From assembly GCA_022614805.1 (NCBI GenBank), contig JAKEHY010000020.1:62001-126000 (forward strand): 64,000 nucleotides of DNA, given 5' to 3'. Below, piece by piece: positions 23,397-52,247 of this stretch. Source of the stretch: Candidatus Zixiibacteriota bacterium (GTDB lineage Bacteria > Zixibacteria > MSB-5A5 > DSPP01). The position numbers and the translations under genes are program-made. A model generated the notes under the pieces. It searched no databases, was not told the origin of the DNA, and was given only the letters and a program-made list of their open reading frames with translations. Position 1 is the first letter of the stretch; each line of letters begins with the position of its first letter.

Positions 23397-23444
23397 CTAC
23401 AAATACAAAGAAAATGGGCGGGGAAACAGGGCAGGTTCGAGACG

Positions 23445-27224: not shown

Positions 27225-27277
27225 CGATGAGCGGGGCGGCGGGCAAACGGCAAACCGCAGGAAAAAAGGAGAACGAA

Positions 27278-32276: not shown

Positions 32277-34670
32277 CTAACACGGAAAACTGCCTTGATT
32301 GAAAACGGCGGTTATCAAGATAACTATGTCGGCACCAGAGGCCGAACCGTTGCAATTCAAGTCGCAGGCGCCAAAGCCGGCCGGCGGTTCGGACTGCGAG
32401 AAGGTACAGCCGATCAGAAACACAATGTCCGCGGCGCTCAAGTTTCCGTCTAGGTTCAAGTCCCCCTTCCGGACGGTGGACGGATCTATGACAGCTATGG
32501 TTATCGGCTCACTGTCGGTAAGGGAGCCGTCCGAGGCGGTGAACGTGACATCATGGTTGCCGACTTGGGATAACGTTGGCGTCCAACTGAAGCGACCCCG
32601 TCCGTTCAAACTATCGAAAAAGATGGCCCCACTGGGCAGTCCCGTGATGGAAAAGCTTGGGGTAGTTCCATCCGGGTCGCTGGCAGAAACGTTGAAGGCT
32701 AACTCTCGACCCGCCAAAACAAATTTGTTTCCAATCGAAGCTAAAACCGGCGGGTGCGGACCAAAGCTAACCTCCACTACGGTGTCAATCCGCATGGTCA
32801 CGCCGGAAAGCACCACCGAGTCGAGACCGGAAGAAAGAACATAGCGTAACTGATAGGTTCCGGGCACGAGAATTCCCGCATACTGCCCCAAATCGTCGGT
32901 CATCCCTTTGGCCAGAGGCGCCTCCGGCGAGCCGAAGGCCCGCACCTTTACACCGGCCAGAGGATTTCCATCGGAACCGCGCACAGTGCCGGAAAGCTGA
33001 ACTCCATGGCGCAGGGTCAGATTGATGGTCGTGTCCTTTGTTATCGAAGCTCCCGTAAAAGAGGCTCCCGTAAAGCGGGAAGCCAAAGGCGGGGTATAGG
33101 CCAAATCAAACGTTCTGGGCGGAATAACGGCCTCATAGTATCCGGCCGAATCGGTATTGTCCGAGGGCGTGAAGACCTCTGTCCCGGAAGGCGGGATAAA
33201 TGCATCAAAATCAACTTCGAAGAGGGGATTATTAAGGGAGTCTTTGATAAATCCCGAAACCGAACGCCCGGAATCGAGAGTGACATTCAAGGTCAAATTA
33301 GCATTTAGAGAGAAGTTCGGAAACTCTTTGGCCACGCGGCGAATGGCCTTGGGCGGTTCAAACTCGACCGTATAGCTGCCAGGAACAGCCACCACGGCAT
33401 AATTCCCCAAAGCATTGGTAAAGTGGTTGGCCAGAGGTATCTTAGCTCCCGTAGCGGGATTTTCGAAGCGGATATCTACATTGGCCAATCCGCCCCCTCC
33501 GGTTCTTTGAGCCGTGCCGGACAGGGTGACACCGTTGGGCAGATTCGCATCTAAAGTTCGGTCGGTGCTGACCGTTACGCGCAAGCTCTCCACGGAGGCC
33601 AGCCCTGTGGCGGCCGGGGGTTGAAAGACGACATTAAAGCCGCCGGCCGGAACCACGGTTTGATAGAAGCCGGCAGCATCGGTGGCATCTCCGGGAGTGG
33701 GGATTTTTAGGCCTGTTATAGTGTCTTCCACGTCGATGTCCACGCCGGCAACCACCGTCATATTGCTGGCGCGGCGAACCGTGCCGGAAAGAAAGAACCC
33801 GGGCTGAAGGGTAAAGTTCACGTTATTGATGTCGTTGCTCACCACAAAGGAAAATATTTTGCCAGCCACCAGCTTGTCGGATACCTGTGGCTCGACGGTT
33901 ATGTTGTAGGTGCCGGCAGGAACCACCACCTGATAGTCGCCCCCCTCGTTAGTGTTGTCGTTAGGGGTGGGAACCCGCTCGCCGGTTGAAGAGATGTCAA
34001 AGTCTAAATCGGCATCCACCACCGGCTGGCCGTTATTATCCTGAACGCGGCCGGAAACAAAAAAGCCTGGCTGAAGGATAACATCGCGCGTCTGGGTGGA
34101 GTTGAAAACCACCCCTTTGAACTCCGCCGCTACCAGCTTTTCCCCGCTGACGGGACGGTAGGTTAAAGTATAAAGGCCGCTTTGGAGTACCAAAGAATAG
34201 AAGCCGGTGAAATCAGTTTTGTCGCCAGGCGTAAAGACCCGCTGCCCGGTCAATTCGTCATCCACGTTCAGGTCAATGTTTGCCAAGCCGTTACCGTTTA
34301 TGTCCCGCACAAAACCAGAAAGGGTGAAACCGAAAGGCACCGTGTCGTTTAAGACCTGGTTGCCGGAAAACACGTAACCTCGGTTGATGACCGGTGCCAG
34401 CCCGCTGCCAGCCGGCGGTTTGAAGGCTATATCGTACGTCCCGGCTGGCAGGCCAAAAGGTGGGTCTAAATTGTAATTCCCCATCGAATCGGTGGAATCG
34501 GCCAAAAGCCCAATCGGGTCACCCGTGTTGCTGTCGAACATATCGATGTCCACGTTGAATACCCCCACCCCGTTCGGATTGCTGATTTTGCCGGAGAGGA
34601 AAAACTGGGCCGACACGCTTCCATAAAGCCCCATGCTTAGGAAAAGGATTGCGATTAAGCGACTACGCAT
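32277..34670 (-). CDS. Large secreted protein: carboxypeptidase-regulatory-like repeats, Ig-like domain, dockerin-like tail
   Basis: 797 residues with a signal peptide (RLIAILFLSMGLYGSVSAQ). About seven repeats of roughly 95 residues follow, each of the type LSGFVRDINGNGLANIDLNV, TPGDKTDFTGFYSLVL and a basic PP-containing turn. This is a CarboxypepD_reg/CnaB-like beta-sandwich pattern. Residues about 645-730 are a cadherin/Ig-like domain (FSWTPTLSQVGNHDVTFTASD). The last 65 residues have two calcium loops, DLNLDGNLSAAD and DLNCNGSASGAD, as in dockerin-like tails. Probably a surface or secreted stalk protein. It is the last gene of the minus-strand glycan locus, 82 bases after its paralogue. 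Confidence 0.8.
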   Translation of the reverse strand: MRSRLIAILFLSMGLYGSVSAQFFLSGKISNPNGVGVFNVDIDMFDSNTGDPIGLLADSTDSMGNYNLDPPFGLPAGTYDIAFKPPAGSGLAPVINRGYVFSGNQVLNDTVPFGFTLSGFVRDINGNGLANIDLNVDDELTGQRVFTPGDKTDFTGFYSLVLQSGLYTLTYRPVSGEKLVAAEFKGVVFNSTQTRDVILQPGFFVSGRVQDNNGQPVVDADLDFDISSTGERVPTPNDNTNEGGDYQVVVPAGTYNITVEPQVSDKLVAGKIFSFVVSNDINNVNFTLQPGFFLSGTVRRASNMTVVAGVDIDVEDTITGLKIPTPGDATDAAGFYQTVVPAGGFNVVFQPPAATGLASVESLRVTVSTDRTLDANLPNGVTLSGTAQRTGGGGLANVDIRFENPATGAKIPLANHFTNALGNYAVVAVPGSYTVEFEPPKAIRRVAKEFPNFSLNANLTLNVTLDSGRSVSGFIKDSLNNPLFEVDFDAFIPPSGTEVFTPSDNTDSAGYYEAVIPPRTFDLAYTPPLASRFTGASFTGASITKDTTINLTLRHGVQLSGTVRGSDGNPLAGVKVRAFGSPEAPLAKGMTDDLGQYAGILVPGTYQLRYVLSSGLDSVVLSGVTMRIDTVVEVSFGPHPPVLASIGNKFVLAGRELAFNVSASDPDGTTPSFSITGLPSGAIFFDSLNGRGRFSWTPTLSQVGNHDVTFTASDGSLTDSEPITIAVIDPSTVRKGDLNLDGNLSAADIVFLIGCTFSQSEPPAGFGACDLNCNGSASGADIVILITAVFNQGSFPC

Positions 34671-34752
34671 AGAACACCTCCAGACTGCTCAACGGCTTTC
34701 GGCCCGGTTAAACTCCCTTTTGGGCATCCCCTCGCCCCGAACTTTCTCCAAT

Positions 34753-36243
34753 TTAACGAATAACCGCCACTTTCAAAACTTTTTCCGTCTTTCTTGAATT
34801 TCCCGGTTTTTCCAAAACAATCTTGCAGAAATAGACCCCGGAGGCCACCGGCTGGTCGCTTTGGTTTAAGCCGTCCCATTCCAGCACCTGCCGGCCTCCT
34901 CCTGAGAATTCGGTTCGACTTCGATAGATGATTTCCCCCACCGGTGAAAAGATGGTCAGCGATATTTTCCAAACGCCGGAGACAACATCCAGGTCGACCG
35001 GAAATTTTATCCGATTACCCCCTTCAGGGCGGAACGGGTTGGGGCGAGCTTCGAGGATTCGGGTTTCAACGGATACCGGCGTGTGCAAAGGTTCACCGGT
35101 GAGAACCACGGCGGTGTCGAAGTCGCTTAAAACCTTAACCCCCGTAATCATCAAGGTGTCAAAGCCGGCGGTTCCTAAAGGAGGACTTATCACCAGGGTA
35201 TAGCTGTCTGGCGGAACGGCTACTTTAATCACCCCAAGAGAATCGGCATTGTCCGTAGGAGTGAAAAGCTCGTTCCGGCTGGGAAATTCCCGAATGACAT
35301 CCAAATCGCAATTTTGAATTGGATTTCCCAGCGAGTCTTTCACCGTGACGCTTAGCAAGACTCCCACCCGAAACGTTTCTAAAATGGAGGTATCCGCAAA
35401 AATGGAAAAGGGTTCGATTTCTTTTGGAATCAAGCGGTTGCCGCGGGGCGGAATCAAAAGCAAACTAAAAGTTCCGGGCGGTGTTATCACTCGGAAATTC
35501 CCTAAGCTGTCGCTGCGGTTATTGGAAAGGAAAATCTCTTTACCAGCTGTGTCCTCGAGGTCAACGGAGAGGCTGGGAACTCCCGTGTCCAATGAATCAA
35601 CCGCCCGCCCAGAGAGAACCAAGCCGGTAACGAGAAGGGCATCCATGACCGTGTCTTTGCTAACAGGGACGGTGTCTTTCTGCAAACCTCGAAAGCGGCT
35701 GCCGGGAGGAGAATCAAAGCGGACCCGAAATATACCCGGTGGCACCACGACCCGATAAAAGCCAACTGAATCGGTGTTGTCCCTGGGGGTAAAAATCCTT
35801 TCCTTGTTCGGAAGCTGGGTGAAATCCAAATCCACCCCTAAAATGGGGGCACCCACGCTGTCGGTTACCGTGCCGGAAACGAAAAAACCAATTGGCAAAA
35901 ACACGGTATCCATCAACCGGTGAGTGGATAAATCAACAAAAAATCGTTTTCCGACTAAGCGAGCACCGACAGGTGGTTTGAAGGATACGAAATAAATCCC
36001 GTCCGGAAGAATAACCTGATAGAAACCTCCTGTTATAGTCTTATCACCGGTGATAAGGGATTCTGGGACTTCCGTTCCGGTGGCCGTGTCCTCAAAATCT
36101 AAGTTGACTTCCACTACCGGTTGTCGGTTACCATCAAATACATATCCCCTCATAATGACTTGTGTTTGGGCTGAAAGCTTAAGGTAAGATGTTAATAAAA
36201 AAACAATAATGAATAATACAAAGCGGGTGAAAAAAGAATGCAT
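34753..36243 (-). CDS. Secreted repeat protein with FlgD-like/type A C-terminal domain
   Basis: 496 residues with a signal peptide (FVLFIIVFLLTSYLKLSAQ). Four repeats of about 90 residues, each with FVSGTVTDSVGAPILGVDLDF-type strands, FTPRDNTDSVGFY turns and a PPG step, make it a paralogue of the downstream 797-residue protein. The ending differs: EARPNPFRPEGG, IFSPVGEIIYRS, LEWDGLNQSDQPVASGVYFCKIVL, which is the FlgD-Ig/type A secretion-domain pattern of FCB bacteria. It starts three bases after the porin stop, so it belongs to that operon. Its role may be surface display beside the exported glycan (inference). Confidence 0.8.
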   Translation of the reverse strand: MHSFFTRFVLFIIVFLLTSYLKLSAQTQVIMRGYVFDGNRQPVVEVNLDFEDTATGTEVPESLITGDKTITGGFYQVILPDGIYFVSFKPPVGARLVGKRFFVDLSTHRLMDTVFLPIGFFVSGTVTDSVGAPILGVDLDFTQLPNKERIFTPRDNTDSVGFYRVVVPPGIFRVRFDSPPGSRFRGLQKDTVPVSKDTVMDALLVTGLVLSGRAVDSLDTGVPSLSVDLEDTAGKEIFLSNNRSDSLGNFRVITPPGTFSLLLIPPRGNRLIPKEIEPFSIFADTSILETFRVGVLLSVTVKDSLGNPIQNCDLDVIREFPSRNELFTPTDNADSLGVIKVAVPPDSYTLVISPPLGTAGFDTLMITGVKVLSDFDTAVVLTGEPLHTPVSVETRILEARPNPFRPEGGNRIKFPVDLDVVSGVWKISLTIFSPVGEIIYRSRTEFSGGGRQVLEWDGLNQSDQPVASGVYFCKIVLEKPGNSRKTEKVLKVAVIR

Positions 36244-36246
36244 AGC

Positions 36247-38046
36247 TTAAAATTCAATCCGTAAGTTAATCCGGTTCAAAATAGCGTTGTCGGGTGAAAA
36301 AGGCATAAAGGCCTCTCCGGGATTAAACAATCCAAAACTATAAGCCAGATTAACACGCTGTAAGATTCTTTGAATGCCCAAAATGAAGTCCAGTTCCCAT
36401 CCCAAATCTTTGGATAGTCCGGTGGGAATGGCGGGCGGCGCGATTAACTCGGAACGCACATCGTTATCCAGCTGGTTTTGCCGGTAGGTGTGAAAGATGG
36501 CATCGAAGGAAACCTGCCGGTGCGGTCGAAAACCGGCACCTGCCGTTAGAATTTGAAGGTTGGCCAGCTCCGGGTCCAGCACCTCGCCGTAGTACTGGAA
36601 ATTGGCAAAACCGCCAAACCGACCGGAGTTATCCTCGTAACCGGTCTGCCGAAACTCCTGCGAAATCGAATCTCCGCTTACCTTATCCCCAGAGCCGAGG
36701 GAATAGCCCAGGGTTAAGCTGGGCCGCAAGTGATGATCGGTAGCTGCAAAGGTTGCCCCAAAATCAAGTGCGTATGCCTCCTGGTCGCGCTGTTTGTCGG
36801 TACCCCGCAGCAAGCCGGCTTGCAGCCAGCCTGTTATAAACCTTTTTGGGCGGCCGTAATAGGAAAGGCCCCAGTACACTGGTTCGCGGTTGCGGGCATC
36901 GGAGTCCCGGCGTTTCAGCATATAAACGTTGGCTTCGTTTTTGCCATCCGGGATAAAGCGAACCCGGAAAAGGAAATCATCCCAGGTACGGTATTTCTCA
37001 TCCTGAAAGGGGAAAAGGGAGGGAAGAAAAGAAGCCTCCAGCACCACCGGTTGGGTTTCATAGAAGTAAAGCCGGACGGCGTCGAGGTATTCGTCGAATA
37101 GCCACTCCCGTTGATCCCGCACCCGCTGTTTGCCGACCATTAAAGCCGCCTTTCGTCCCGCCGGGGCGCGCAAAAGCAAGTATGCCTGGATGGCCTGAAA
37201 TTCAAAGCGGGTCGACTCCGCCGTGGAGGGGCGGTTCGGGAACGTGCCAAAGGTGTACTTTTTCCGCAGCCGCAGTTGCAAAAAGCTCTGCACCTCCGGC
37301 GCCCAGTTGCCAGCCGCCTCCAGCCTTAGGGCCGGCTCGGTATCCTGATAGTCGTCCTTCTGAACTTCAGATAAAGTGTAGCGTTTCTCCAGACGAGTCG
37401 TCTGACGGTAGTCGCCGGAAAGAAGCAATTGGTCACCGACTCGGAGATGGGGAAAGTTGATTCCGCCCTCGTCGGCGGTCAGGTTGCCGAAAAGCTCGTT
37501 TTCCAAATAGCGCGCCGAGCCGTACAAATCGGTCTCCTCCGTCACCAAAATCTTCAAGCCGGATATTTCAATGGTGTCCGGCGGCTTGCTGTCAAAGATC
37601 AGCCGGGTAATCGTTCCTTTGATTTTGTCCGACGCTTTGATTTCGTTCCAGTCGATTTTATCAGCCGTCCAAGTGCCTTGTTCACTCACATTACAGGTGA
37701 TTTCCAGCCGCATTCCGTCTTTTAACGCTTGAATTCCTACGGTACCCTCCCCTCGGGCCGGGAAAAGGGTTCTGGCTTCCACTTTTATTTTGAGGCCGAA
37801 AAGGACGAAAGAAGAATCCTTGCGGTCCAGCTTATCGATTGTCCCCCGCAGCTTGGGCCGGCGGGCCTTCGCCAGTTTTTCTACCGAGCGGGCGATGAAT
37901 ATTCCTTCCCCGCTCCAGCTACCGGAGACCTCCACCCCGTCCCCTTCTTTCAGCTTGGTGTACGGCCCGGCCTCCGTGCTTTTGCTCAGCCCAAGCGTTA
38001 GGGCGAAAACGGAAAACCACAGTATCGTCCGGTTTCTGTTCAACAT
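36247..38046 (-). CDS. DUF5666-like domains fused to an AlgE-like outer-membrane porin
   Basis: 599 residues from ATG 38046. An upstream extension is possible but AAGGAGGG directly before 38046 decides the start. A signal peptide (NRTILWFSVFALTLGLSKSTEA) leads to a region of about 170 residues repeating the upstream neighbour (EGDGVEVSGSW, LRGTIDKLDRKDSSFVLFGLKIKVE, DKIKGTITRLIF). From about residue 230 an alginate-export-type barrel follows (AYLLLRAPAGRKAALMVGKQRVRDQREWLFDEYLDAVRLYF), closing in a terminal phenylalanine (INLRIEF). AlgE-type porins let acidic polysaccharide leave the cell. Its operon with glycosyltransferases and an exporter supports this. Confidence 0.85.
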   Translation of the reverse strand: MLNRNRTILWFSVFALTLGLSKSTEAGPYTKLKEGDGVEVSGSWSGEGIFIARSVEKLAKARRPKLRGTIDKLDRKDSSFVLFGLKIKVEARTLFPARGEGTVGIQALKDGMRLEITCNVSEQGTWTADKIDWNEIKASDKIKGTITRLIFDSKPPDTIEISGLKILVTEETDLYGSARYLENELFGNLTADEGGINFPHLRVGDQLLLSGDYRQTTRLEKRYTLSEVQKDDYQDTEPALRLEAAGNWAPEVQSFLQLRLRKKYTFGTFPNRPSTAESTRFEFQAIQAYLLLRAPAGRKAALMVGKQRVRDQREWLFDEYLDAVRLYFYETQPVVLEASFLPSLFPFQDEKYRTWDDFLFRVRFIPDGKNEANVYMLKRRDSDARNREPVYWGLSYYGRPKRFITGWLQAGLLRGTDKQRDQEAYALDFGATFAATDHHLRPSLTLGYSLGSGDKVSGDSISQEFRQTGYEDNSGRFGGFANFQYYGEVLDPELANLQILTAGAGFRPHRQVSFDAIFHTYRQNQLDNDVRSELIAPPAIPTGLSKDLGWELDFILGIQRILQRVNLAYSFGLFNPGEAFMPFSPDNAILNRINLRIEF

Positions 38047-38681
38047 CAATCCCTCCTTGTGCTGGTTTTTGTAAGCCGCAGTTCCATTATAGGAGAAACA
38101 GCAGCGGCGCTTTGCTGTGACCCGGGCGTTAAGGCTGGTGTCTCCGTCCCCCACGGCCCAAAGAGGTCGGTGCCTTCCACCACCAGTATCTTGAGCCCGG
38201 AGATTTCAAAGGTATCCGGCGGGGTCCCGTCGAAGGCCAAGCGGGTGACCGTCCCTTTGATTTTATCCGAGGGCTTCAGTTTGCCGGTTTCAATTTTCCT
38301 GGCTATCCAGTTTCCGAACTCATCCACGCGCGAAGTCACCTCCACACGCATTTTAGCTTTGAAGTTTTCAAAGCGCACGGCCTGCCCGCCGTTGTCCATA
38401 AATTCGGTTTTGTCGTCCACCTTGATTTTCACCCCGAACAGAACAAAGCTTTTCTCCGGCGTCAAAATTTTGACGATGGCCCCGCGCAGCTTGGGGCGGC
38501 GGGGGTCCGGCAGCTTTTCGATGTCGTCGGCCACAAAAACGCCGGCTTTTTTGTCCCATTCGCCGTCTACCTCCACGGCGTCGCCGATTTTCAGCTTCAT
38601 ATACTCCGGTTTAGGAGAGGCAGACGCCGGCACGCTTGAAAAAAGCAGGAACGGCAGTACAGAAAACAGCATTTTACGCAT
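38046..38681 (-). CDS. Periplasmic DUF5666-like protein
   Basis: 211 residues with a signal peptide (FSVLPFLLFSSVPASA). Two short beta-barrel-like repeats follow: IGDAVEVDGEWDKKAGVFVADDIEKL, PKLRGAIVKILTPEKSFVLFGVKIKVD, then DKIKGTVTRLAF and FEISGLKILVVEGTDLF. This is the DUF5666 style (small OB-like domains of unknown function). The protein aligns over its full length with the N-terminal half of the porin next door, so one arose from the other by duplication. Overlaps with both neighbours show coupling. It may be a periplasmic partner of the porin. Confidence 0.8.
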   Translation of the reverse strand: MRKMLFSVLPFLLFSSVPASASPKPEYMKLKIGDAVEVDGEWDKKAGVFVADDIEKLPDPRRPKLRGAIVKILTPEKSFVLFGVKIKVDDKTEFMDNGGQAVRFENFKAKMRVEVTSRVDEFGNWIARKIETGKLKPSDKIKGTVTRLAFDGTPPDTFEISGLKILVVEGTDLFGPWGTETPALTPGSQQSAAAVSPIMELRLTKTSTRRD

Positions 38682-39981
38682 TAGATTCTCCTCTTGGGGT
38701 TTTCTTCGATTGTTCCAAAAGTGGAATGGCCAGCTTTTTCCAGCGCGGGCGGAGGGAATACAGACAGGCCAGCCGCAAAAGACTTGCGGCCTCCCACCAG
38801 GTGGTCCTTTTTTGAAAATTTTTTCCGGTCATCGGGCTTTTGCTTGGATGATAAGCTTCAAGAAAATTCGTTCGAGCTTGCCCTACGATTTTTTCCGGAA
38901 GCGAATGCTGCTTGCCGCGCAAAATAAGGTGGGCCAAAAAATTCCCCACATCCTGGGCCGGGTCCCCCCGCGACAGGGCGTCTGTGTCCAAAAGGGTCGT
39001 TCGATTTGAACCGGCCAAAAGCTGTTTGTCGTAAAAGTCGCGATGCAACGGCGCAAATTCTTTTTCTTCCATGGCCGGACGGCTGCTTTCAAGTTTTTTC
39101 CAAACTTCGTGAACGTTTTCCTGCAACGCCGGATAAATTCGGGCGGTTTCAAAGGCAAGGTCTTTAAGCTCGGACAGGGCTTCCTCGATAGTGTAGAGCG
39201 AAAGGTTTTGGAGTTTTGCCGAATGGAGCTTTTGCAGCGCCAACCCGGCCGAGCGGCAGCCGGGAATGAAACGCTCCGTTTCAATTAAATCGTGCAGGGA
39301 GGAGTCGGCAATCGCTTCCAGCCACAAAACCCCTTCCGAAGTGGCGGTAACCGGATGGGGTACGCGGATATTCTCTTTACTTGAGGCGCCAAAGCCGTTT
39401 TCTTCGAGGGTTCGGAGCTGCTCAAAAAGCCCGGCGGCTTTTTCCGACCGCACCAACTTGGCTACTAAAGAAAGGGTGCGTCCGTGTTCGCTTACGCTTA
39501 TGTTCAAAATTCCCCGCCGTTCAAGCCGGTATCCCAAAACGTCCACTTTCACTACCTGCGCTGTGCCGTTTAAGCCAAGGGTTTGGGTCAGGGGCTGCAA
39601 AAGACCGGGGCCGGGCGCCGGATCGAAGAATTGCGCCAGCGTCTTGATCTTCGGATCGAAGGGAAAAACCGGAACTACCAGCCGGATGTTGGCAACAAAA
39701 AAGGCGTTCGGCTCCTTGGCGTAGGCCGGAATCATTTCGGAAGGGGATAGAAGCCGTCCGAAGAAAATCCGGGGTTGGTGGCCGTGCTCGTCCACCGTCG
39801 AAAAGCGGTACTGAATGAGAAATTTTCCTTCACCCTTGGGAATGACTCTTGGAATGTGAAAGTTTGCAATTTCCACCGTACGGCCCCAGAGACGGGAGAG
39901 CGGGGCCTGAAAAATCGGCGGCATTACGGCTTCGTCCGTAGCCGCCGCCAGGTGGGAATAGGCCGGGCTCGGTTTCAGCAT
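38674..39981 (-). CDS. APH-fold kinase-like protein, second of a tandem pair
   Basis: 435 residues from ATG 39981, which overlaps the previous gene in an ATGCTGA arrangement. A longer upstream reading is unlikely. The C-terminal part has the aminoglycoside-phosphotransferase catalytic elements: LHRDFYDKQLLAG (His-x-Asp) and TTLLDTDALSRGDPAQDVGNFLAHL (metal-binding DxD). The N-terminal 200 residues are divergent (VVKVDVLGYRLERRG, LSLVAKLVRSEKAAGLFEQL). Substrates of APH-fold enzymes range from antibiotics to sugars. Within a glycan operon a sugar or lipid-carrier kinase role is plausible but unproven. Confidence 0.75.
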   Translation of the reverse strand: MLKPSPAYSHLAAATDEAVMPPIFQAPLSRLWGRTVEIANFHIPRVIPKGEGKFLIQYRFSTVDEHGHQPRIFFGRLLSPSEMIPAYAKEPNAFFVANIRLVVPVFPFDPKIKTLAQFFDPAPGPGLLQPLTQTLGLNGTAQVVKVDVLGYRLERRGILNISVSEHGRTLSLVAKLVRSEKAAGLFEQLRTLEENGFGASSKENIRVPHPVTATSEGVLWLEAIADSSLHDLIETERFIPGCRSAGLALQKLHSAKLQNLSLYTIEEALSELKDLAFETARIYPALQENVHEVWKKLESSRPAMEEKEFAPLHRDFYDKQLLAGSNRTTLLDTDALSRGDPAQDVGNFLAHLILRGKQHSLPEKIVGQARTNFLEAYHPSKSPMTGKNFQKRTTWWEAASLLRLACLYSLRPRWKKLAIPLLEQSKKTPRGESNA

Positions 39982-43164: not shown

Positions 43165-43165
43165 A

Positions 43166-44359: not shown

Positions 44360-45636
44360 ATCGTTTTTCCCGCCAGAGACGACGGTATGGTTGCTTCCGT
44401 CGGTTTGTTTCCCACTTCAACGGATTGCCGGTAAAAACTTTCCAAAGTTGCCACACTCTTTTTCAGATCAAACTTTTCTTCTACTTTTTTTCTTCCTTCC
44501 CGCGCAAAGCGGGCCGCCAATTCGGGAGAATCAAGAACTTTCTCAATGGCCTCGGCCAAAGCGGGCGGGTTATCCGGCGGAACTAGAAGGCCGTTTTTGC
44601 CTTCGTCAACTATTTCCGGTATCCCCGATACGGTGGTGGAAACTACCGGACAGCCGGTACCGAGAGCCTCCAGAAGCACGGTCGGCAGGGCATCCTGATT
44701 GCCGTCCGTATCCACCGTGCAGGGCAGGGCCAAAACGGAAGCCCGCTTGAGACAGGGCAGCACTTCGACCTGGGTTTTGGGACCCGCAAAGGTTACAATA
44801 TCGGCAAGCCCCAACGCCTGCCTTCTGGCTTCCAGTACTTCCGCCTCTTCCCCCTGGCCGATGATGATGCAGCGGAAGGGGATTTTCTTTTCCTTCAAAA
44901 TGGCGCAGGCCTTCAGCAAATCCGGAAACCCTTTTTTGGGAACCAATCTCCCAATGGATAAAATAAGATCCTGCTCACGCGGCAGTTGGGGTTCGAAGTT
45001 GAAAAAATCCAGACGGATGCCGTTGTATAAGACTTTAATTTTTTCCGCCGGAACCGTTGGATACGTGGAAGTCAGAAATCGGCGATTAAACTCCGTGACT
45101 GTGATCACAAAACGGGCGGCCAGCAATTTTTCTTGCAGCATTTTTTGATTGACGGAATCCCGGAAAATATCTTTGGCGTGGGCGGTGAAGCTGAAGGGCA
45201 GCCCGGAAATCCGGCTGACAAAATAGGCCGCCGTGGAAGGAAGGCTGGCAAAGTGAGCGTGCAGGTGCATAACCCCGTGACTCAAGGCCAAGGCGGCCGC
45301 CCAGGCGGAGCCGAAAAAAAGTTCCATAAGCGAAGGTTCGTTCTGTGGCACCAGTTCTTCGAGAAGCTTCCAGAGCTCGGCCCGGCGGGGAGAAAGGGTG
45401 GGCCAGTTTTCGGCCAAAACGGCCCACCCTTTTTTGGGCTCAAGCTCGTCCAGGTAGTAAACTGGAGCCTTGATTTCGGCCACCTGCGGATGAAAACGCC
45501 CCTCGTTCGGCTTTTTCAGGGAAAAAATCGTGACCTCCAAACCCCGCCGTTCCAGTTCCAAAATCTCGTTCAGAATGAAAGTCTCCGAAAGCCGGGGATA
45601 CATTTTGACGAAATAGCCGACTCTTAAGGGACTCAT
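44356..45636 (-). CDS. Family 4 glycosyltransferase (GT-B), second subfamily
   Basis: 426 residues with MYPRLSETFILNEILELERRGLEVTIFSLKKPNEG at the N-terminus, the colanic-acid WcaL/AmsK-like signature. The C-terminal domain has VTVTEFNRRFL, KVLYNGIRLDFF, ILSIGRLVPKKGFPDLLKA, IIGQGEEAEVLE, SVLALPCTVDTDGNQDALPTVLLEALGTGCPVVST. Members add hexoses to exopolysaccharide repeat units. Four-base overlaps on both sides tie it to the neighbouring transferase genes. Confidence 0.9.
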   Translation of the reverse strand: MSPLRVGYFVKMYPRLSETFILNEILELERRGLEVTIFSLKKPNEGRFHPQVAEIKAPVYYLDELEPKKGWAVLAENWPTLSPRRAELWKLLEELVPQNEPSLMELFFGSAWAAALALSHGVMHLHAHFASLPSTAAYFVSRISGLPFSFTAHAKDIFRDSVNQKMLQEKLLAARFVITVTEFNRRFLTSTYPTVPAEKIKVLYNGIRLDFFNFEPQLPREQDLILSIGRLVPKKGFPDLLKACAILKEKKIPFRCIIIGQGEEAEVLEARRQALGLADIVTFAGPKTQVEVLPCLKRASVLALPCTVDTDGNQDALPTVLLEALGTGCPVVSTTVSGIPEIVDEGKNGLLVPPDNPPALAEAIEKVLDSPELAARFAREGRKKVEEKFDLKKSVATLESFYRQSVEVGNKPTEATIPSSLAGKTI

Positions 45637-46886
45637 TTCAACACCCCTCGGCTTGTTAAAAGCGGATGGCAGAGCTCGGCCAGCTTGGCGGCTCCATCCA
45701 AGGGCAGGGGATTTTTCTTACGTGCCTGAAAAAGCTTGTTGGTGGGGTCATTTATCATCGAATAGACCACGTCGAATAGTTTTCCGGGTGATAAATCCAC
45801 GGGAGAAATATAATTCACCAGCCCCAACTCCGACAGCCGCTGGGCTCGAAGCAGTTGCTCCTTGCGAGGGTAAATCCTTGGAATAATTAAGGCCTTTCTT
45901 GCCGATGATAGAATTTCTACCACGGTATTATACCCTCCCATGGAAATGACCAAATCCGCTTTTTCAAAATGGGGAGCAAGTTCCGGCAGAAATTCTTCAA
46001 ATCGGACGGGTAATCCGATCGCTTCTGCAATCAACATTCTTCTCCATTTTTCCTGCATAAAGGGGCCGAGAACAATGGTTGTTGCGGCGTTGATTTCATC
46101 ACCCAACTCTTTCAGCATAACCAAGTAGTTGTACACGATTTCCATCCCATCTTCGCCACCTCCGATGGTCAAAAGAATTTTTTGCCGAGCGGAACGCCCG
46201 ACTTTTTTAGCGGGCGAACTTGATGAGGGGTTACCGTCGCTAATAAATCCTGTAAAGTCGGTTTTTTCCCGGGCCTTACAGCCAAAACGGTATTCACTGA
46301 CCGGATCAAAGAACTTGGAAGTCCCGTATATGAAAATCCGGTCGTACACTTCGTCCAGAACGGGATAAACCCCTTCCGTCTCCCAGGCCGCGCAAACCTT
46401 TTCCGGTTCGTCCAAAATGTCCCGCAGCCCCAAAACCAGCGCGGGAGAACTGTTTTTGGCTTTCAGTTCCTGAAGGGTTTTCTTGATTTCCCCCTTCATT
46501 CCCAGCGGGGCGTGGTCCACTAGAAAAATGTGGGGCTGGAACGTGCGAATCGCTTCGGAAATCAAGTTCTGACGCAATTCAAAAATCTTTTCAAAAGAGC
46601 TCCCCAGCGAACGGGGCTGGTAGCGGCTTTCTCCGACTTTCACCACCGCCGGCAGCTTGATGAAATCGGTCCCCTCCGGCAGGCGGTATCGCTCCGCCTG
46701 CTGCTGGCCGGTCACAATTAAAATGGCGCTTTGCGGATAGGCGGAGTTAAACGCTTTGGCAATTTTCAAACAGCGCCGGAAATGCCCCAATCCAAAAGTG
46801 TCGTGGGAATAGATTAAAAGTCGAGGGGGCTCGGCTGCCTTCTCGGTGACCGCGCGTGGGACAACTGGTGCGGGCTCAAGCTTCAT
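45633..46886 (-). CDS. GT-B glycosyltransferase of the COG4671/MurG-like type
   Basis: 417 residues from ATG 46886, which overlaps the upstream dehydrogenase stop (ATGA). The longer upstream frame runs inside that gene. LLIYSHDTFGLGHFRRCLKIAKAF is the N-terminal signature of the predicted transferase family COG4671. ILLTIGGGEDGMEIV and LVISMGGYNTVVEILSSARKALIIPR follow the MurG-like C-terminal pattern that binds the nucleotide sugar. It probably uses a UDP-sugar, perhaps the product of the dehydrogenase encoded just upstream. Confidence 0.82.
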   Translation of the reverse strand: MKLEPAPVVPRAVTEKAAEPPRLLIYSHDTFGLGHFRRCLKIAKAFNSAYPQSAILIVTGQQQAERYRLPEGTDFIKLPAVVKVGESRYQPRSLGSSFEKIFELRQNLISEAIRTFQPHIFLVDHAPLGMKGEIKKTLQELKAKNSSPALVLGLRDILDEPEKVCAAWETEGVYPVLDEVYDRIFIYGTSKFFDPVSEYRFGCKAREKTDFTGFISDGNPSSSSPAKKVGRSARQKILLTIGGGEDGMEIVYNYLVMLKELGDEINAATTIVLGPFMQEKWRRMLIAEAIGLPVRFEEFLPELAPHFEKADLVISMGGYNTVVEILSSARKALIIPRIYPRKEQLLRAQRLSELGLVNYISPVDLSPGKLFDVVYSMINDPTNKLFQARKKNPLPLDGAAKLAELCHPLLTSRGVLK

Positions 46887-48289
46887 GCTTCTCCCGGTTT
46901 CTGACCCATTCCGAGATAATTGAAGCCGAGGCGAGCCAAGATTTCCGGCACCAGCAGGTTGCGGGCGTCCACAATGTTTTTGGATTTCATCTTTTGGCCG
47001 ATTTCCTCCCAGTTCAGGGCCATAAACTCCGGCCATTCCGTCAGAACAACCAAAGCATCCGCTTTTTCGGCAACCTCTTCCGGATTGGGGGCCAGCTTCA
47101 GCTCCGGCCAGAGTGCACGGGCCTCCCCCTCTGCTACCGGGTCGTAGGCCTGCAGCAAGGCCCCCTTTTCTTCAAGCCGTTTCATCACGGCCAAAGCCGG
47201 CGAACTGCGCAAGTCGTTGGTATGGGCTTTGAAGGTCAGCCCCAGAACGCCGATGGTTTTTCCTTTCAATGTTCCGACCAGCTTCTCCAGTTTCCCCACC
47301 ACCAGCCGGGGCTGGCGGGCGTTGGCCTCCTTTACCGCCTCGGCGATGGAGAGGCGCACCCCTTGTTTTCGGGCCAGGTTTAAGATGGCGTCCAAGTCCT
47401 TCGGCAAACAGGAGCCGCCGAAGCCGGGGCCGGGGTTTAGAAACTCCGGGCTGATGCGGGAATCCAGTCCCATTCCACGGGTCACCTCGGTGACGTTTAG
47501 GCCCGCCGCATCGCACAGGTTGGCCAGCTCGTTGACAAAGGCCACCTTGGTGGCCAGAAAAAGATTGGAGGCGTATTTAATCATTTCGGCCGTTTCGTTG
47601 TTGGTGACCACGATGGGGCAGGCATCCATCATCCCGACTCGGTAGAGCTGGGCAATCGTTTCAATTGCCTCCGGCTGGTCGCCGCCGATGACAATCCGCT
47701 GGGGCCGAAAGAAGTCCATCACCGCGGTCCCTTCGCGCAAAAACTCCGGATTGGAAACGACTGCCACCTGTTTTTTGGCGGCGCCGTTTTTGGACAACCG
47801 ATTTCGCACCTGCAAAGCGGTGCCCACCGGCACGGTCGATTTCAAAACGAGAATCTGTTTCGGTGTCAAAAGCGGCCCCAAGGTTTCCACCACTTCAAAA
47901 ACGGCGGAAAGGTCCGCCTCGCCGGAGGGGAGGGAAGGGGTGCCCACAGCTAAAAAAATCGCATGCGCGCCTTTTATCGCTTCGGCCAGTTCGGAAAAAA
48001 CACCCAGTCGGTGGCGGCGGAGGTTGGCTCCAAACAGTTCGGGCAAGCCGCGCTCGTGTATTCGAATTCGTCCGGCACGCAGTTCTTTCGATTTATCGGG
48101 GTCTTTTTCCACCAACGCGACCGTGTGGCCAAACTGGGCAAATCCGGCGGCCGCCACCAGCCCCACAAACCCGCCCCCCAGAACGGCCACCCGAAGCCCG
48201 GTGGAAGGATAGACCGGAAGCCCGGCTTCGGTGGCCAGCCCGTGCGACAGTTCCCTCTTCTTTAGCTTGTTGTCGGTATCAGTCCGCAA
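46883..48289 (-). CDS. UDP-glucose/GDP-mannose 6-dehydrogenase family enzyme
   Basis: 468 residues if it starts at TTG 48289. A GTG just before VAVLGGGFVGL is a weaker option and no clear Shine-Dalgarno decides. The Rossmann motif is GGGFVGLVAAAGFAQFGHTV. KSTVPVGTA, SNPEFLREGTA and the catalytic cysteine in GPGFGGSCLPKDLDAIL (about residue 290) follow, then VLGLTFKAHTNDLRSSPAL. The enzyme oxidises a nucleotide sugar to its uronic acid with two NAD. UDP-glucuronate as product would make the glycan acidic, fitting the AlgE-like porin downstream (inference). It is the first gene after the predicted sigma-54 promoter. Confidence 0.9.
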   Translation of the reverse strand: MRTDTDNKLKKRELSHGLATEAGLPVYPSTGLRVAVLGGGFVGLVAAAGFAQFGHTVALVEKDPDKSKELRAGRIRIHERGLPELFGANLRRHRLGVFSELAEAIKGAHAIFLAVGTPSLPSGEADLSAVFEVVETLGPLLTPKQILVLKSTVPVGTALQVRNRLSKNGAAKKQVAVVSNPEFLREGTAVMDFFRPQRIVIGGDQPEAIETIAQLYRVGMMDACPIVVTNNETAEMIKYASNLFLATKVAFVNELANLCDAAGLNVTEVTRGMGLDSRISPEFLNPGPGFGGSCLPKDLDAILNLARKQGVRLSIAEAVKEANARQPRLVVGKLEKLVGTLKGKTIGVLGLTFKAHTNDLRSSPALAVMKRLEEKGALLQAYDPVAEGEARALWPELKLAPNPEEVAEKADALVVLTEWPEFMALNWEEIGQKMKSKNIVDARNLLVPEILARLGFNYLGMGQKPGEA

Positions 48290-48321
48290 GAGTCGGTCTC
48301 ATTTCTTGCTTAATAACAAAT

Positions 48322-48335
48322 GCAATAATCCCTCC
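48322..48335 (-). promoter_or_regulatory. Putative sigma-54 (-24/-12) promoter of the glycan operon
   Basis: Read on the minus strand, GGAGGGATTATTGCA has GG at the -24 position (48335-48334) and GC at -12 (48323-48322) with exactly ten bases between, the spacing sigma-54 needs, and TTGCA around -12. Other -24 flanking bases do not fit the consensus. Transcription would start near 48310, about 20 bases before the dehydrogenase start. The sigma-54 activator gene lies immediately upstream. Confidence 0.6.
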
Positions 48336-48440
48336 CCCAAAACTACATCAATATATATGCCGAAAGCAGTGGTTGTGACTAACTGATTGCCGTGCGGGAT
48401 GTTACGGTTTTGCGAAGGCGTCAATTAGGCAAGGTGGATT

Positions 48441-48472
48441 GGTTGATTTCAACCAAACGGTTTCTTTCAACC
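48441..48472. promoter_or_regulatory. Tandem activator-binding sites (putative UAS)
   Basis: Two sites of the form GGTTGAAA-N2-AACC (minus strand) lie 18 bases apart. The one at 48441-48454 extends to a palindrome TTGGTTGATTTCAACCAA (48439-48456), and the other is 48459-48472. They fall about 130-160 bases upstream of the predicted sigma-54 start and just after the NtrC-type activator gene, the usual place for its enhancer sites. Confidence 0.65.
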
Positions 48473-48480
48473 AGCTAATA

Positions 48481-49872
48481 CTATAGCCCAAATTTCTGAA
48501 CCCGATAGCGCAACGCTTCCCGGCTCAACTTCAATTTTCGAGCGGCTTCGGAAACGTTACCCTCTGACTCTTCAAGGGCGCGGACAATCAATTGCTTTTC
48601 CACTTCTACTATATCTATGCCGTCCGGGCCGAATTCCACCTTTACGGCCGTGTTCGGGCCAACTGCCACCAAGGGGGGCTTTCCGGCCTGCAACCGCAAA
48701 TCGGCCGGCTCGATTTCCCCGCCGGATGAAAACAGGAGGGCCCGCTCCAAAAGCTGCCGCAGCTCCCGCACGTTGCCGGGCCAAGCGTAGTCCTGAAGCA
48801 TCTTTTTCGACGGTTCGCTTAGTTTTTTGAAGCCCGGCCCGCCGGGCCTTTTGTTGGCCGCTTTTTGCAAAAAATGCTCGGCCAGAAGCAGAATGTCCTT
48901 TTTTCTTTCCCGCAGGGGGGGCAGAGTGAGGGTGACGTGATTCAACCGGAAAAAAAGGTCCTGTCGGAACTGGCCGGTCTTTACGGCCTGGCCCAAATCC
49001 CGGTTGGTGGCGGCGATGATGCGCACGTCTATGGATAAATCCCGCAAGCCGCCCACGTGGCGCAGCTTTTTCTGTTCAATCAGGCGCAAGAGTTTGGCCT
49101 GGGATTCCGATGACAGATCGCCGATTTCATTTAAAAACAAAGTCCCCCCTTCGGCCACCTCCGCCAGCCCCCGCTTGGATTGACGGGCATCGGTGAAAGC
49201 CCCCTTTTCATAGCCGAACAACTCCCCTTCCTCCAGCCCGCGCGGCAGGGTGGGACAGTTTACTTCGATGAAAGGGGCGGCGGAAAAAGCGCTTTTGAAG
49301 TGCAAAAGCCGGGCAACCAGGTCCTTCCCCGTCCCGGTTTCCCCCAAAACCAAAACCGGCGGCAGTTCTGAAACTTTCACCATGACCAACTCGGAAAGTT
49401 TCTTGATGAAAGCCCGTACCTCGCGCGCTCTTGAGCTTTCTCCCAAGAATTCCTCTTCCGCAAGCCGCTCGGCCTCCCGCTTTTGATAAAAGGAAACCGT
49501 GCGCGCCAGCCGGGCGTGCGCAAGGGCCCGCTCGATGGCGATCGCCACCTCGTCGGTGTCCAGGGGCTTGCGCAAAAAATCGATTGCCCCCAGCTTCATC
49601 GCCTCCACGGCCGAGGCGATGGTGCCGTAAGCGGTCACGATGATGACTAGGATGTTGGGGTCGGTTTCCCGGATTTTTTTCAGGGCCTCCAGCCCGGAAA
49701 GCCCGGGCAGCTGCATATCCAAAAGCACTATATCGGGCAAAAGTTTGTCCAGAAGCGAAAGCCCCTCCTCCGCCGTCCCCACCGCCGAGGCCTCATGGCT
49801 CTTTTGGGAAAGCGCCCGGGAAAGGGAACGCCCCAAAAGAATTTCGTCGTCGATGATTAAAATCTGCGCCAT
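48481..49872 (-). CDS. NtrC-family sigma-54-dependent response regulator
   Basis: 463 residues in three parts. A receiver domain (1-120) has acidic DDE at 8-10 and phospho-acceptor Asp52 in VLLDMQLPG. An AAA+ domain (about 142-370) has Walker A GETGTGKD (177-184), the sigma-54 contact loop GAFTDA (224-229) and GGTLFLNEIGDL. A Fis-type helix-turn-helix closes the protein (GNVSEAARKLKLSREALRYRVQK). It activates sigma-54 promoters on phosphorylation by the kinase encoded directly upstream. The likely target is the glycan operon downstream, where a -24/-12 element and two repeated sites are seen. Confidence 0.96.
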   Translation of the reverse strand: MAQILIIDDEILLGRSLSRALSQKSHEASAVGTAEEGLSLLDKLLPDIVLLDMQLPGLSGLEALKKIRETDPNILVIIVTAYGTIASAVEAMKLGAIDFLRKPLDTDEVAIAIERALAHARLARTVSFYQKREAERLAEEEFLGESSRAREVRAFIKKLSELVMVKVSELPPVLVLGETGTGKDLVARLLHFKSAFSAAPFIEVNCPTLPRGLEEGELFGYEKGAFTDARQSKRGLAEVAEGGTLFLNEIGDLSSESQAKLLRLIEQKKLRHVGGLRDLSIDVRIIAATNRDLGQAVKTGQFRQDLFFRLNHVTLTLPPLRERKKDILLLAEHFLQKAANKRPGGPGFKKLSEPSKKMLQDYAWPGNVRELRQLLERALLFSSGGEIEPADLRLQAGKPPLVAVGPNTAVKVEFGPDGIDIVEVEKQLIVRALEESEGNVSEAARKLKLSREALRYRVQKFGL

Positions 49873-51309
49873 TTAACTTTCCTCCCGCCAGAGGGGTAAG
49901 GTGAGGGTCATCGTCGTGCCCGCTCCCGGACGGCTTTCCACTTTAATGGAGCCGCCGTGCAAATCGACGATTTTTTTGGCCTGCGCTAACCCCAAGCCGG
50001 TGCCGCCCGGCTTGTCGGTCACAAACGGCTTGAAGACCCGCTCGATAAAAACCGGGGGGATTCCCTTGCCGGTGTCGCTAACGCGCAGGACCGCTTCTTT
50101 GCTGTCAGCGGCGGCTTCGATAGTAAGGGATCCTCCTTTGTCCATTGCTTCGACGGCGTTTACGATTAAGGCCGAAAGCACCTGCTCCATCAAAACCAGG
50201 TCGACCAAAACGGGAGGCAACGCAGCCAGATGGGTGGTCACGCCGATTTTCTTGGACTCCAGTAACGCTTCGTTCAATCCGAGGGTCTCGTAAACCAGTT
50301 GCGGCAACTCGGTTTTGGTTGGCTGGAGATCCAAGGGCTTGGCAAATCCGAGAAGCCTTTGTATCCAGACATCCAGCTTGTCCACGGACTGAATGATGTC
50401 CGCCAGCGACTCTTTAATGGCCGGCTGGCTTTGGCACTCCGCCAGCATCACCTGCGAAGCGGCCCGAATCCCAGCCAAGGGATTGCGGATGTTGTGGGTG
50501 GCAAAGGCGGCCAGCTCCCCCAAAGCTGCCAACCGTTCCTGCGCGCGCATCTTTTGCTCGTACTCTTTCAGCGCTTTGGCCATCCGGTTGATGGCTCCAG
50601 CAAGTGCACCCCATTCGTCCTGACTTTGCACGACCACTTTGGCTTCGAAGTCCCCCCGGCTGATTTTGGCGGTCACACGCCCCACTTCTGCTATTGGGCC
50701 GGCCAGCCAGCGCTGCAGAAGAAAAACGGTAGCGAGTAGTTGGGCCAAAGCGAGAAGGGCTGCTCCGCCCACCAGATAGGTAATGAGATTGCCGGAGCTG
50801 GCCGCCGCCGAAAGGGCGGCTTTTTCCAGCCCCTGATAGTACTGGTTCAAAACCGCCACGTCGGAGGTCACCTCGTTGCCGATTTCGTCCAATCTTTCAG
50901 CCCGCCGCTCCTTCGGGTTTCGTGCCCCAGCAGCGGAGGGCTTGAATATGTTTTGCGCAACATAAACCAATTCCCGCTGGGTCTCCTCCAGGGCTTCCAG
51001 ATGGTCAGTCTCCTCCTCCGTTTCGGCGGCCGACTTCAGTTGTCCCATCTGCTGGACGACCCGTTCCTGAATGCTCCAGAAATCGGGCTCGGCACTCCGG
51101 TCACCGGAAAGAAAATCGCTGCCGGCCGAAATCTGGCGGTATATGTCGGCCCGCAACCGCTCGGCGGCTACTCCCTGATTGTAGGCCCGGGAAAGGTCTG
51201 CGGCCGAACGCCGCCAGCGCCTCGAAGCCCAGAGAGCAGCTGTGCCGATGGCCAGTACGACCAAGAACAAAAGCACATAACTTAAAGTCAGCCGGGAGCG
51301 GATACTCAT
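49873..51309 (-). CDS. Membrane sensor histidine kinase with HAMP domain
   Basis: 478 residues. Helix 1 (about 8-28), a periplasmic sensing domain (30-172) of mostly helical, charged sequence, helix 2 (about 175-199), then HAMP (200-250). HisKA has His272 in FATHNIRNPLAGIRAASQVM, and the HATPase has VNAVEAMDKGG, VSDTGKGIPPVFIERVF and GTGLGLAQAKKIVDLHGG. It phosphorylates the partner response regulator encoded right after it (one base before its start). The NtrB-like HNIRNPL box, in place of HELRTPL, marks it as a partner of sigma-54 activators. The start overlaps the epimerase stop (ATGA). The signal is unknown. Confidence 0.95.
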   Translation of the reverse strand: MSIRSRLTLSYVLLFLVVLAIGTAALWASRRWRRSAADLSRAYNQGVAAERLRADIYRQISAGSDFLSGDRSAEPDFWSIQERVVQQMGQLKSAAETEEETDHLEALEETQRELVYVAQNIFKPSAAGARNPKERRAERLDEIGNEVTSDVAVLNQYYQGLEKAALSAAASSGNLITYLVGGAALLALAQLLATVFLLQRWLAGPIAEVGRVTAKISRGDFEAKVVVQSQDEWGALAGAINRMAKALKEYEQKMRAQERLAALGELAAFATHNIRNPLAGIRAASQVMLAECQSQPAIKESLADIIQSVDKLDVWIQRLLGFAKPLDLQPTKTELPQLVYETLGLNEALLESKKIGVTTHLAALPPVLVDLVLMEQVLSALIVNAVEAMDKGGSLTIEAAADSKEAVLRVSDTGKGIPPVFIERVFKPFVTDKPGGTGLGLAQAKKIVDLHGGSIKVESRPGAGTTMTLTLPLWREES

Positions 51310-52235
51310 TGGGAAAAGATGCCGGAGTTTTTAAACCAGAGCACGGTTTTCCGCAGGGAGCGGGCAAAGTTGGCCTTTGGCAAAAAGCCCAAAACTTTCC
51401 GGGCCAGCTTGATATCCGCCCAGGTATGCAGAACGTCCCCCTGTTTGCGGGGAGAAAACTCCGGCTGGGAATTAGTTTGCAAAATCTTCTGCAATCCAGA
51501 AAAAAGCTTGTTGACCGAAATCCGCTTTCCGGAGCCGACGTTAAAAACTCCTCCCACTGCTTTTTTCGACCGGGCTGCCAGTTCCGCCGCGTGGACCACA
51601 TCCTCGACATAAACGAAATCGCGGGTCTGATTGCCGTCCCCGTAAATAGTGGGGGGATGCCCGGTCGAAAGCTTTCGGGTGAAGTTGGGAATGGCGTTGG
51701 CATACTGGGAAAAAGGATTTTGCCGTGGGCCGTACACGTTGAAAAGCCGCAGGGCCACCGTTTCCAGCCCGTACAGCCGCCAATACAGAGAACAGAGTTG
51801 CTCTCCCGCCAGTTTGGATAGGGCATACGGGGATTCCGGGTGGGGAGGAAAACTCTCCTTGAACGGCAGTTTGGGATACTCCCCGTAAACAGCGGAAGAG
51901 GAAGTGTACACCACCCGTTTTACTTTGGCCCGCCGCGCCGCCTCCAGCACGTTATACGTCCCCTTTAAATTCACCTCCCAGGTGGTTAGCGGGTCTTCAA
52001 GTGAGGTTAAAACGGACACCACGGCCGCCAAATGAAAAACCGCATCCGCCCCTTCCGTCAAACGGCAAAGCAAATCAAAATCCCGCACATCCCCTTCCAC
52101 CAACTCCGCGCGTTCAAGCCCGGACAGATTCTCTTTGCGCCCAGAGGAAAAGTTGTCCAGAATGACGACCAAATGCCTCTTTTTAAGGAGAGAGACAGCC
52201 AGATGGGAGCCGATGAAACCCGCTCCGCCGGTCAC
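51306..52235 (-). CDS. NAD-dependent sugar epimerase/dehydratase (UDP-glucose 4-epimerase-like)
   Basis: 309 residues from GTG 52235, or 313 from an ATC at 52247. GTG would remove the first beta strand, whereas IRALVTGGAGFIGSHLA needs the ATC codon, preceded by GGAG at nine bases. Extended SDR features: TGGAGFIGSHLA, VFHLAAVVSV, SSSAVYGEYPKLPFKE, the catalytic Tyr and Lys in SPYALSKLAGEQL, and VYGPRQNPFSQYANAIP. It converts nucleotide sugars, as a GalE-like epimerase or dehydratase. It heads the operon that also carries the histidine kinase and the sigma-54 activator, and likely feeds the glycan pathway. Confidence 0.9.
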   Translation of the reverse strand: MTGGAGFIGSHLAVSLLKKRHLVVILDNFSSGRKENLSGLERAELVEGDVRDFDLLCRLTEGADAVFHLAAVVSVLTSLEDPLTTWEVNLKGTYNVLEAARRAKVKRVVYTSSSAVYGEYPKLPFKESFPPHPESPYALSKLAGEQLCSLYWRLYGLETVALRLFNVYGPRQNPFSQYANAIPNFTRKLSTGHPPTIYGDGNQTRDFVYVEDVVHAAELAARSKKAVGGVFNVGSGKRISVNKLFSGLQKILQTNSQPEFSPRKQGDVLHTWADIKLARKVLGFLPKANFARSLRKTVLWFKNSGIFSQ

Positions 52236-52247
52236 TAATGCGCGGAT

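Follow-up and report, generated by a model that had tools for sequence, protein, structure and literature searches.

A candidate envelope-glycan cassette with conserved kinases in a Zixibacteria genome, with relatives across phyla and on plasmids

The export of bacterial glycans is usually divided into Wzx/Wzy-dependent, ATP-binding cassette (ABC) transporter-dependent and synthase-dependent classes. In WbdD-dependent systems, chains are capped by phosphorylation, and in the Wzk/PglK pathways, as known for the O antigen of Helicobacter pylori and the N-glycan of Campylobacter, the glycan is assembled by glycosyltransferases (GT) in the cytoplasm and handled by one half-transporter, with no Wzx or Wzy. 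Wzk is described as an O-antigen flippase in one report (PMC4990322). Here, we analyse a minus-strand block of fourteen genes (32277-52235) in a 64,000-nucleotide stretch, hereafter the window, of contig JAKEHY010000020.1 from a Candidatus Zixiibacteriota genome (GCA_022614805.1; 2.56 Mb, 93% complete), which encodes three glycosyltransferases, an MsbA-like ABC exporter, two kinases of the aminoglycoside phosphotransferase (APH) fold and an AlgE-like porin. With a probability of roughly 0.6, this locus would be a member of a widespread, apparently undescribed envelope-glycan cassette with kinase phosphorylation and export as proposed below; a role in envelope glycans as such is highly probable because of family membership and conserved context.

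The original prediction regarded the locus as a candidate system; a defined system would be supported if the two kinases and the porin fusion occurred in the same genomes, and contradicted by homologues scattered without conserved order. Co-occurrence proved to be strict. Among 146 genomes, i.e. the window's own and its relatives, a search with the first kinase (K1) found 17 carriers including the window genome, with a match to the second kinase (K2) adjoining K1 in nearly all of them; K2 was found in the same 17 (among 132 genomes of the phylum), and a porin profile returned, from the same 146 genomes, K1's 17 and one marginal extra (E 3.5e-4, 89 residues). Fisher's test for co-occurrence of K1 and porin gives a p of 3e-21 (17/146 genomes, kinship ignored). 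The carriers are patchily distributed (12 of 85 genera), and order is kept. In relatives with long contigs, the upstream half of the locus consists of an epimerase, a histidine kinase, a sigma-54 regulator, the dehydrogenase UGD, the glycosyltransferases GT28, GT4a and GT4b and the ABC exporter, and the downstream half of K1 (sometimes two), K2, the porin and one or two CarboxypepD repeat proteins, with the DUF5666 domain either fused to the porin or encoded by a separate gene. Exceptions are the UGD gene, which was not detected at its place in two loci (L046, L047), an epimerase gene on the other strand (L043), and porin frames with stops in two genomes. Since order is conserved in the relatives and co-occurrence is strict, a chance neighbourhood can be rejected, and the claim of a defined system stands on these same grounds. 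In one relative (L124:5830-8565), two nearly identical tandem K1 genes, representing a recent duplication, are followed by K2 and the porin.

The core is spread far wider than the phylum Zixibacteria. When GTDB genomes were scanned with the K2 profile, 172 relatives were obtained, of which the best 80 were analysed. Outside the Zixibacteria, relatives belong to the Cyanobacteria, Planctomycetota, Acidobacteriota, Proteobacteria, Myxococcota, Chloroflexota, Actinomycetota and Nitrospirota and to the archaeon Candidatus Methanoperedens, and the series GT28-GT4-GT4-ABC-kinase(s) recurs in Cyanobacteria, Planctomycetota, Acidobacteriota, Chloroflexota, Proteobacteria, Actinomycetota and one archaeon. 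Neighbourhoods were counted in the 53 loci from outside the phylum (three of them plasmid loci) that offer more than 5.5 kb upstream of the kinase; near the kinase, GT4a was present in 50 of these, the ABC gene and GT4b in 49 each and GT28 in 46, most commonly in the order GT28-GT4a-GT4b-ABC-kinase. A K2-type kinase is present in every cassette examined: K1 and K2 occur together in 29 loci, K2 alone in 39 and K1 alone in none, a count in which K1-only loci would be under-represented, as the scan pattern was built from K2. From these comparisons, GT28-GT4-GT4-ABC-kinase(s) is the predicted core, with an AlgE-like porin and a UDP-sugar dehydrogenase in part of the relatives.

Other components are more restricted. 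Among the 51 loci outside Zixibacteria with enough downstream sequence, an AlgE-like barrel lies nearby in 10; CarboxypepD repeats were seen in three of them (L088, L107, L126), and DUF5666 was not detected by protein comparison in any of the 51, so that it was rejected as a core part. The DUF5666 and repeat proteins, which had been counted among the parts of the system, are thus present here but have to be seen as lineage add-ons outside the core. A DUF5666-domain sulfatase lies beside the cassette in one non-Zixibacteria locus (L068:8516-10435), and the module may have joined the cassette twice, in Zixibacteria and in L068. Genes for glycan modification also accompany the cassette, namely Sulfotransfer_3 genes between ABC exporter and kinase in Planctomycetota (L080, L122) and between the kinases in an acidobacterial locus (L073), as well as sulfatase-family genes after the cassette in L068, L088 and L107. 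Such sulfotransferases and sulfatases fit a modified extracellular glycan, which DUF5666 may, by inference, bind or guide. A variant cluster on a Candidatus Manganitrophus plasmid (L138) combines two APH kinases and two ABC genes with an alginate-export barrel, an alginate-lyase-family protein, a radical SAM protein and a histidine phosphatase.

The cassette is also carried by plasmids. Ten Escherichia plasmids in PLSDB hold both kinases, and the one that was analysed in full has GT28-GT4-GT4-ABC-K1-K2-AlgE-like-UGD as a single run. The corresponding 10.2-kb block was found in 18 of 5,426 complete Escherichia coli genomes, always on a plasmid, always complete and with at least 99.3% identity. 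Its eight genes include neither DUF5666 nor repeat-protein nor two-component genes, and the block is therefore likely to represent the functional core. The carrier plasmids are large and, where PLSDB types them, conjugative. On plasmid p1RM9088 (L136:10614-20792), which carries the core cassette as do 17 further E. coli plasmids, it adjoins an S6-family peptidase gene, F4-like fimbrial genes and a formate dehydrogenase operon, and one of its kinases is annotated as an aminoglycoside phosphotransferase. One carrier, RM9088, was part of a study that dealt with Shiga-toxin-producing strains of wild birds, and the paper on it contains none of the glycan terms searched for. Relatives also reside on Paracoccus and Pseudorhodobacter plasmids, the kinase of Paracoccus aestuarii being a fused one.

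By score and motif, both kinases of the window (minus strand) are APH-fold phosphotransferases. K1 (39975-41345; core gene 5) carries HGDxxxxQ and DFD motifs and K2 (38674-39981) HRDFYxxQ and DxD motifs and the beta-3 Lys175, and with 65.4 and 30.2 bits, respectively, they exceed the Pfam cut-off of PF01636 (23.2 bits). AlphaFold2 models, which were built from alignments of 31 (K1) and 35 (K2) family members, have a mean pLDDT (predicted local distance difference test) of 93.5 and 94.6. Residues 133-456 of K1 match Rv3168 (Z 22.6, root-mean-square deviation 3.5 over 296 residues) and residues 109-434 of K2 match LxmK (Z 23.4, 3.5 over 293 residues), in both cases tied with others. The region ~50-130 of K1 repeats the N-lobe at 171-252, with the same order of strands and helix in the model and a sequence profile E of 2.6e-10, and K1 hence appears to possess two N-lobes. 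For K2, sequence gives no support for such a duplication (E 0.008-0.12), although its N-terminal domain is related to that of K1 (E 3e-12). In both alignments, HxD has an invariant His and an invariant Asp, and DxD an invariant first and a nearly invariant second Asp; the metal-binding position is Gln in 29 of 31 K1 and 34 of 35 K2 rows. The beta-3 Lys is present in 34 of 35 K2 rows; among the 31 K1 rows, 18 have Lys and 12 have Arg at this position. In a tree of 112 kinase domains, one branch separates all K1 from all K2 (UFBoot/SH-aLRT 100/93); since both groups span phyla, the duplication is old, and the tree points to one old K1/K2 duplication that travelled with the cassette. A fused K1-K2 chain, 688-955 aa long, is encoded in Vibrio, Rhodobacteraceae, a sphingomonad, Planctomycetota and one Zixibacterium.

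The exporter (41299-43164, minus strand; core gene 4) combines PF00664 and PF00005 in a single chain and reaches 403 bits with MsbA_rel. Its profile (A7) finds P-glycoprotein, Sav1866 and MsbA as the closest PDB matches, which makes it a type IV half-transporter as in PglK and Wzk and not a set of separate ABC-2 membrane and ATPase subunits as in KpsMT or Wzm-Wzt; against the curated PglK model NF050066 it scores 185 of 1000 bits. The porin (36247-38046, minus strand) joins a DUF5666 module (PF18914, 50 bits; cut-off 27) to an AlgE-like outer-membrane barrel (PF13372, Alginate_exp, 94.4 bits; cut-off 25). In its C-terminal half, the barrel, a feature of synthase pathways, aligns with AlgE (3e-14), and the conserved motifs QTG..N and ELSN lie in the aligned part. 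The preceding gene (38046-38681, minus strand) encodes a secreted DUF5666 protein (56 bits) that is a tandem copy of the N-terminal module of the porin, to which it is 52% identical over 172 aa; DUF5666 has no further match in the genome.

The claim that the locus lacks the hallmarks of known capsule systems was borne out, as Wzx/Wzy, KpsMT and synthase genes were sought and not found. No gene of the block has a Pfam match to a Wzx flippase or Wzy polymerase, and none of the 14 genes matches GT2 or a tetratricopeptide repeat (TPR), i.e. a processive membrane synthase or its scaffold; the glycosyltransferases are GT4 and GT28 only. A tblastn search with the genome's own PF02397 phosphoglycosyltransferase had no hit in the window, nor in the loci of Zixibacteria or the broad set of loci. 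This protein is encoded on another contig (C31), and the Wza-type exporter (PF02563) occurs in the genome only on C31 and C38. A hidden Wzx/Wzy cluster was rejected, since the marker genes lie on that other contig. C31 thus holds a separate locus with phosphoglycosyltransferase and Wza-type exporter, the latter without a homologue in any cassette locus, which argues that the cassette is a second glycan route beside the Wza-type one of this genome. Because their hallmark genes were sought in the locus and not found, the cassette is placed, by gene content, outside the Wzx/Wzy, KpsMT and synthase classes.

All fourteen genes were recovered by Pfam and NCBIfam scoring with the order and domains that the original prediction had given, and its overlaps of a few bases hold for most neighbours once likely starts are used. 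The longest frames of GT28, K1, K2 and porin begin too far upstream, and their likely starts are 46886, 41345, 39981 and 38046; GT28 (45633-46886) then overlaps UGD (from 46883) and K2 overlaps K1 (from 39975) by a few bases, and the DUF5666 and porin genes meet at 38046. The block, which lies on the minus strand throughout, is headed by an NAD-dependent sugar-nucleotide epimerase (51306-52235; Pfam Epimerase, 232 bits), the first gene in Zixibacteria, with the same place in L033 and L039 and not part of the E. coli core. A membrane histidine kinase follows (49873-51309; HAMP, HisKA, HATPase_c), which adjoins the regulator in relatives too, and then the NtrC-type response regulator and sigma-54 activator itself (48481-49872; Response_reg, Sigma54_activat, HTH_8), likewise conserved in relatives. 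The one longer gap, of 191 bases (48290-48480), separates the regulator from UGD (46883-48289), a member of the UDP-glucose/GDP-mannose dehydrogenase family with three Pfam domains (UDPG_MGDP_dh) and the probable uronate supply. Core gene 1 is the MurG-like GT28 (PF04101, GT28_C), whose profile (A6) matches MurG at 3e-8 and which shows 30-46% identity to cassette GT28 genes from other families and phyla; core genes 2 and 3, assigned by family models, are the EpsE/WcaL-like GT4a (44356-45636) and GT4b (43166-44359). Beyond the porin, two secreted CarboxypepD_reg repeat proteins are encoded at conserved positions, one with a C-terminal FlgD_ig-like domain (34753-36243) and one with He_PIG and dockerin-type domains (32277-34670).

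With regard to regulation, the gap between regulator and UGD contains a -24/-12 (sigma-54) site scoring at least 17.7 of 19.4 in 5 of 11 genomes compared, against a background of ~0.006 per 300 bases for such scores in these loci, and two more of the 11 gaps score 16-16.7. A strong promoter in the window was rejected, since its gap has a weak match only (GG-N10-GC, ~48321-48336), and the claim is confined to relatives; the link from regulator to operon is hence supported there and inferred in the window.

Outside the block, the plus strand at 27227-31742 encodes a 1067-aa MMPL-family transporter with a C-terminal LolA-like/DUF1329-like domain, followed by a DUF1302-like barrel, an apparent lipid-export set in which transporter and carrier are fused. 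The G+C content is 0.48 at 20001-24000 versus 0.51-0.60 elsewhere in the window.

From our point of view, the pathway could proceed as follows. UGD, together with the epimerase, would provide an acidic nucleotide sugar, from which GT28 and the two GT4 enzymes would build a cytoplasmic glycan, probably lipid-linked. Either this glycan or its lipid-linked precursor would receive phosphate from the two APH-fold kinases, be it as decoration, cap or export mark; the MsbA/Wzk-like exporter would carry the glycan across the inner membrane, and the AlgE-like barrel would let it out in those diderms that have one. In this lineage, the periplasmic DUF5666 module would replace a TPR scaffold, the two-component system with its sigma-54 activator probably switches the operon, and the two secreted repeat proteins are probably embedded in the glycan layer or bound to it. 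Phosphorylation of the glycan by the kinases would most simply account for their constant position next to the exporter and the conservation of their active sites, and we would give it an even chance. One could speculate further that the core, with an AlgE-like barrel in some diderms, constitutes a separate, horizontally moving class of glycan secretion in bacteria and archaea, in which the kinase(s) phosphorylate the assembled glycan in the cytoplasm as a mark for MsbA-like export; this wider proposal is tentative and we would not bet on it.

Several points weigh against the pathway. The locus has no initiating phosphoglycosyltransferase and no recognised polymerase, and its product may therefore be an oligosaccharide or a glycolipid rather than a polymer; most cassettes outside Zixibacteria have no AlgE-like porin nearby; Arg replaces the beta-3 Lys in ~40% of K1 rows, the window's K1 included; and the weak sigma-54 match of the window recurs in a same-genus relative. 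In addition, we know of no chemistry for any member of the cassette, and the kinases could act on a free sugar, on a lipid or on a protein.

The kinases might, for instance, serve precursor supply by converting free sugars into sugar phosphates, with the cassette using the nucleotide sugars derived from them. Known APH-fold sugar kinases (N-acetylhexosamine kinase, glucosamine kinase, maltokinase) provide a precedent, and two of them, maltokinase and glucosamine kinase, also turn up when the cassette kinases are compared by sequence and structure; however, neither the window block nor that of E. coli contains a nucleotidyltransferase beside the kinases, the kinase adjoins the exporter in nearly all cassettes and, unlike UGD, is coupled to it across phyla, and the fusion of two paralogues would be unusual for a salvage function, all of which makes this role unlikely. 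We regard it as similarly improbable that the product is a membrane glycolipid instead of an exported polymer, in which case GT28 would glycosylate a lipid, which would be extended by the two GT4 enzymes, phosphorylated by the kinases and flipped by the MsbA-like protein. GT28 enzymes such as MurG and the monogalactosyldiacylglycerol synthases glycosylate lipid, and exactly three glycosyltransferases, one of them MurG-like, an exporter of the lipid-flippase type, the lack of a recognised polymerase and the absence of a nearby porin from cassettes of Chloroflexota, Actinomycetota and Methanoperedens would all agree with this. Yet an AlgE-like barrel accompanies the cassette in 17 of 17 Zixibacteria, on the E. 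coli plasmids, in Gammaproteobacteria and Acidobacteriota and in a sphingomonad, and therefore points to a soluble product that crosses the outer membrane, and sulfatases lie beside the cassette and an alginate-lyase-family gene in one variant.

Less probable still is that the kinases are regulators, or a structural pair of pseudo-kinase and kinase, that control chain length or the exporter and leave no phosphate on the product. In LxmK/LxmY, a kinase subunit serves another enzyme, and LxmK is the best structural match of K2; K1 is optional, part of its family has Arg for Lys, and its extra N-lobe could serve pairing. Many APH-fold enzymes have Z values close to that of LxmK, however, and the LxmK model NF038156 gives K2 35.4 and K1 26.5 of 315 bits; moreover, HxD, DxD and the beta-3 Lys of K2 are almost invariant across phyla, and catalysis is therefore under selection in both kinases. 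Antibiotic-resistance kinases, finally, can be dismissed, since both proteins are far under every curated APH model matched in NCBIfam (K1 reaches 28.6 of 205 bits with APH_3p for APH(3') aminoglycoside resistance; K2 has no match among the curated APH(3') models) and nearly always lie beside glycan genes.

The cassette matters for annotation, as pipelines label the cassette kinases aminoglycoside phosphotransferases, which invites a false resistance label. No description of the cassette as a system was found in the open-access literature searched; subscription journals were outside the search, so that a description there is possible. Among the carriers of the cassette are named organisms that can be cultured (Nostoc, Picosynechococcus, Motiliproteus, Lacipirellula and Paracoccus), so that its product and the kinase reaction are directly testable.

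Compared with known systems, the cassette combines an MsbA/Wzk-type exporter, an AlgE-type barrel and one or two conserved kinases. Like maltokinase and glucosamine kinase, which have Gln in the metal-binding loop, the cassette kinases show the APH fold with Gln for Asn at this place, but the sequence similarity is weak and limited to the catalytic part, the N-terminal part differs and the cassette kinases nearly always lie beside an exporter. ABC-dependent capsules and WbdD-capped O antigens share with the cassette an ABC exporter and a kinase in the biosynthetic cluster, whereas the cassette exporter is of type IV, with transmembrane and nucleotide-binding domains in one chain in contrast to KpsM/KpsT and Wzm/Wzt, the kinases are APH-fold and often paired, and there is no Wza/KpsD-like gene. 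The alginate pathway (AlgE) shares with the window block the outer-membrane barrel and the supply of uronate by a UGD-family enzyme, but the block has neither a GT2 membrane synthase nor a TPR scaffold, and DUF5666 occupies the place of AlgK or of the TPR of PgaA/BcsC. Cytoplasmic glycosyltransferases and one MsbA/PglK-like half-transporter without Wzx/Wzy are common to the cassette and the Wzk/PglK pathways, from which it differs by a locus without phosphoglycosyltransferase, ligase or oligosaccharyltransferase, by two added kinases and the AlgE-like barrel in the outer membrane, and by an exporter far below the PglK cut-off. By analogy, its function would thus most resemble a route in which a Wzk-type step at the inner membrane is coupled to an AlgE-type step at the outer one.

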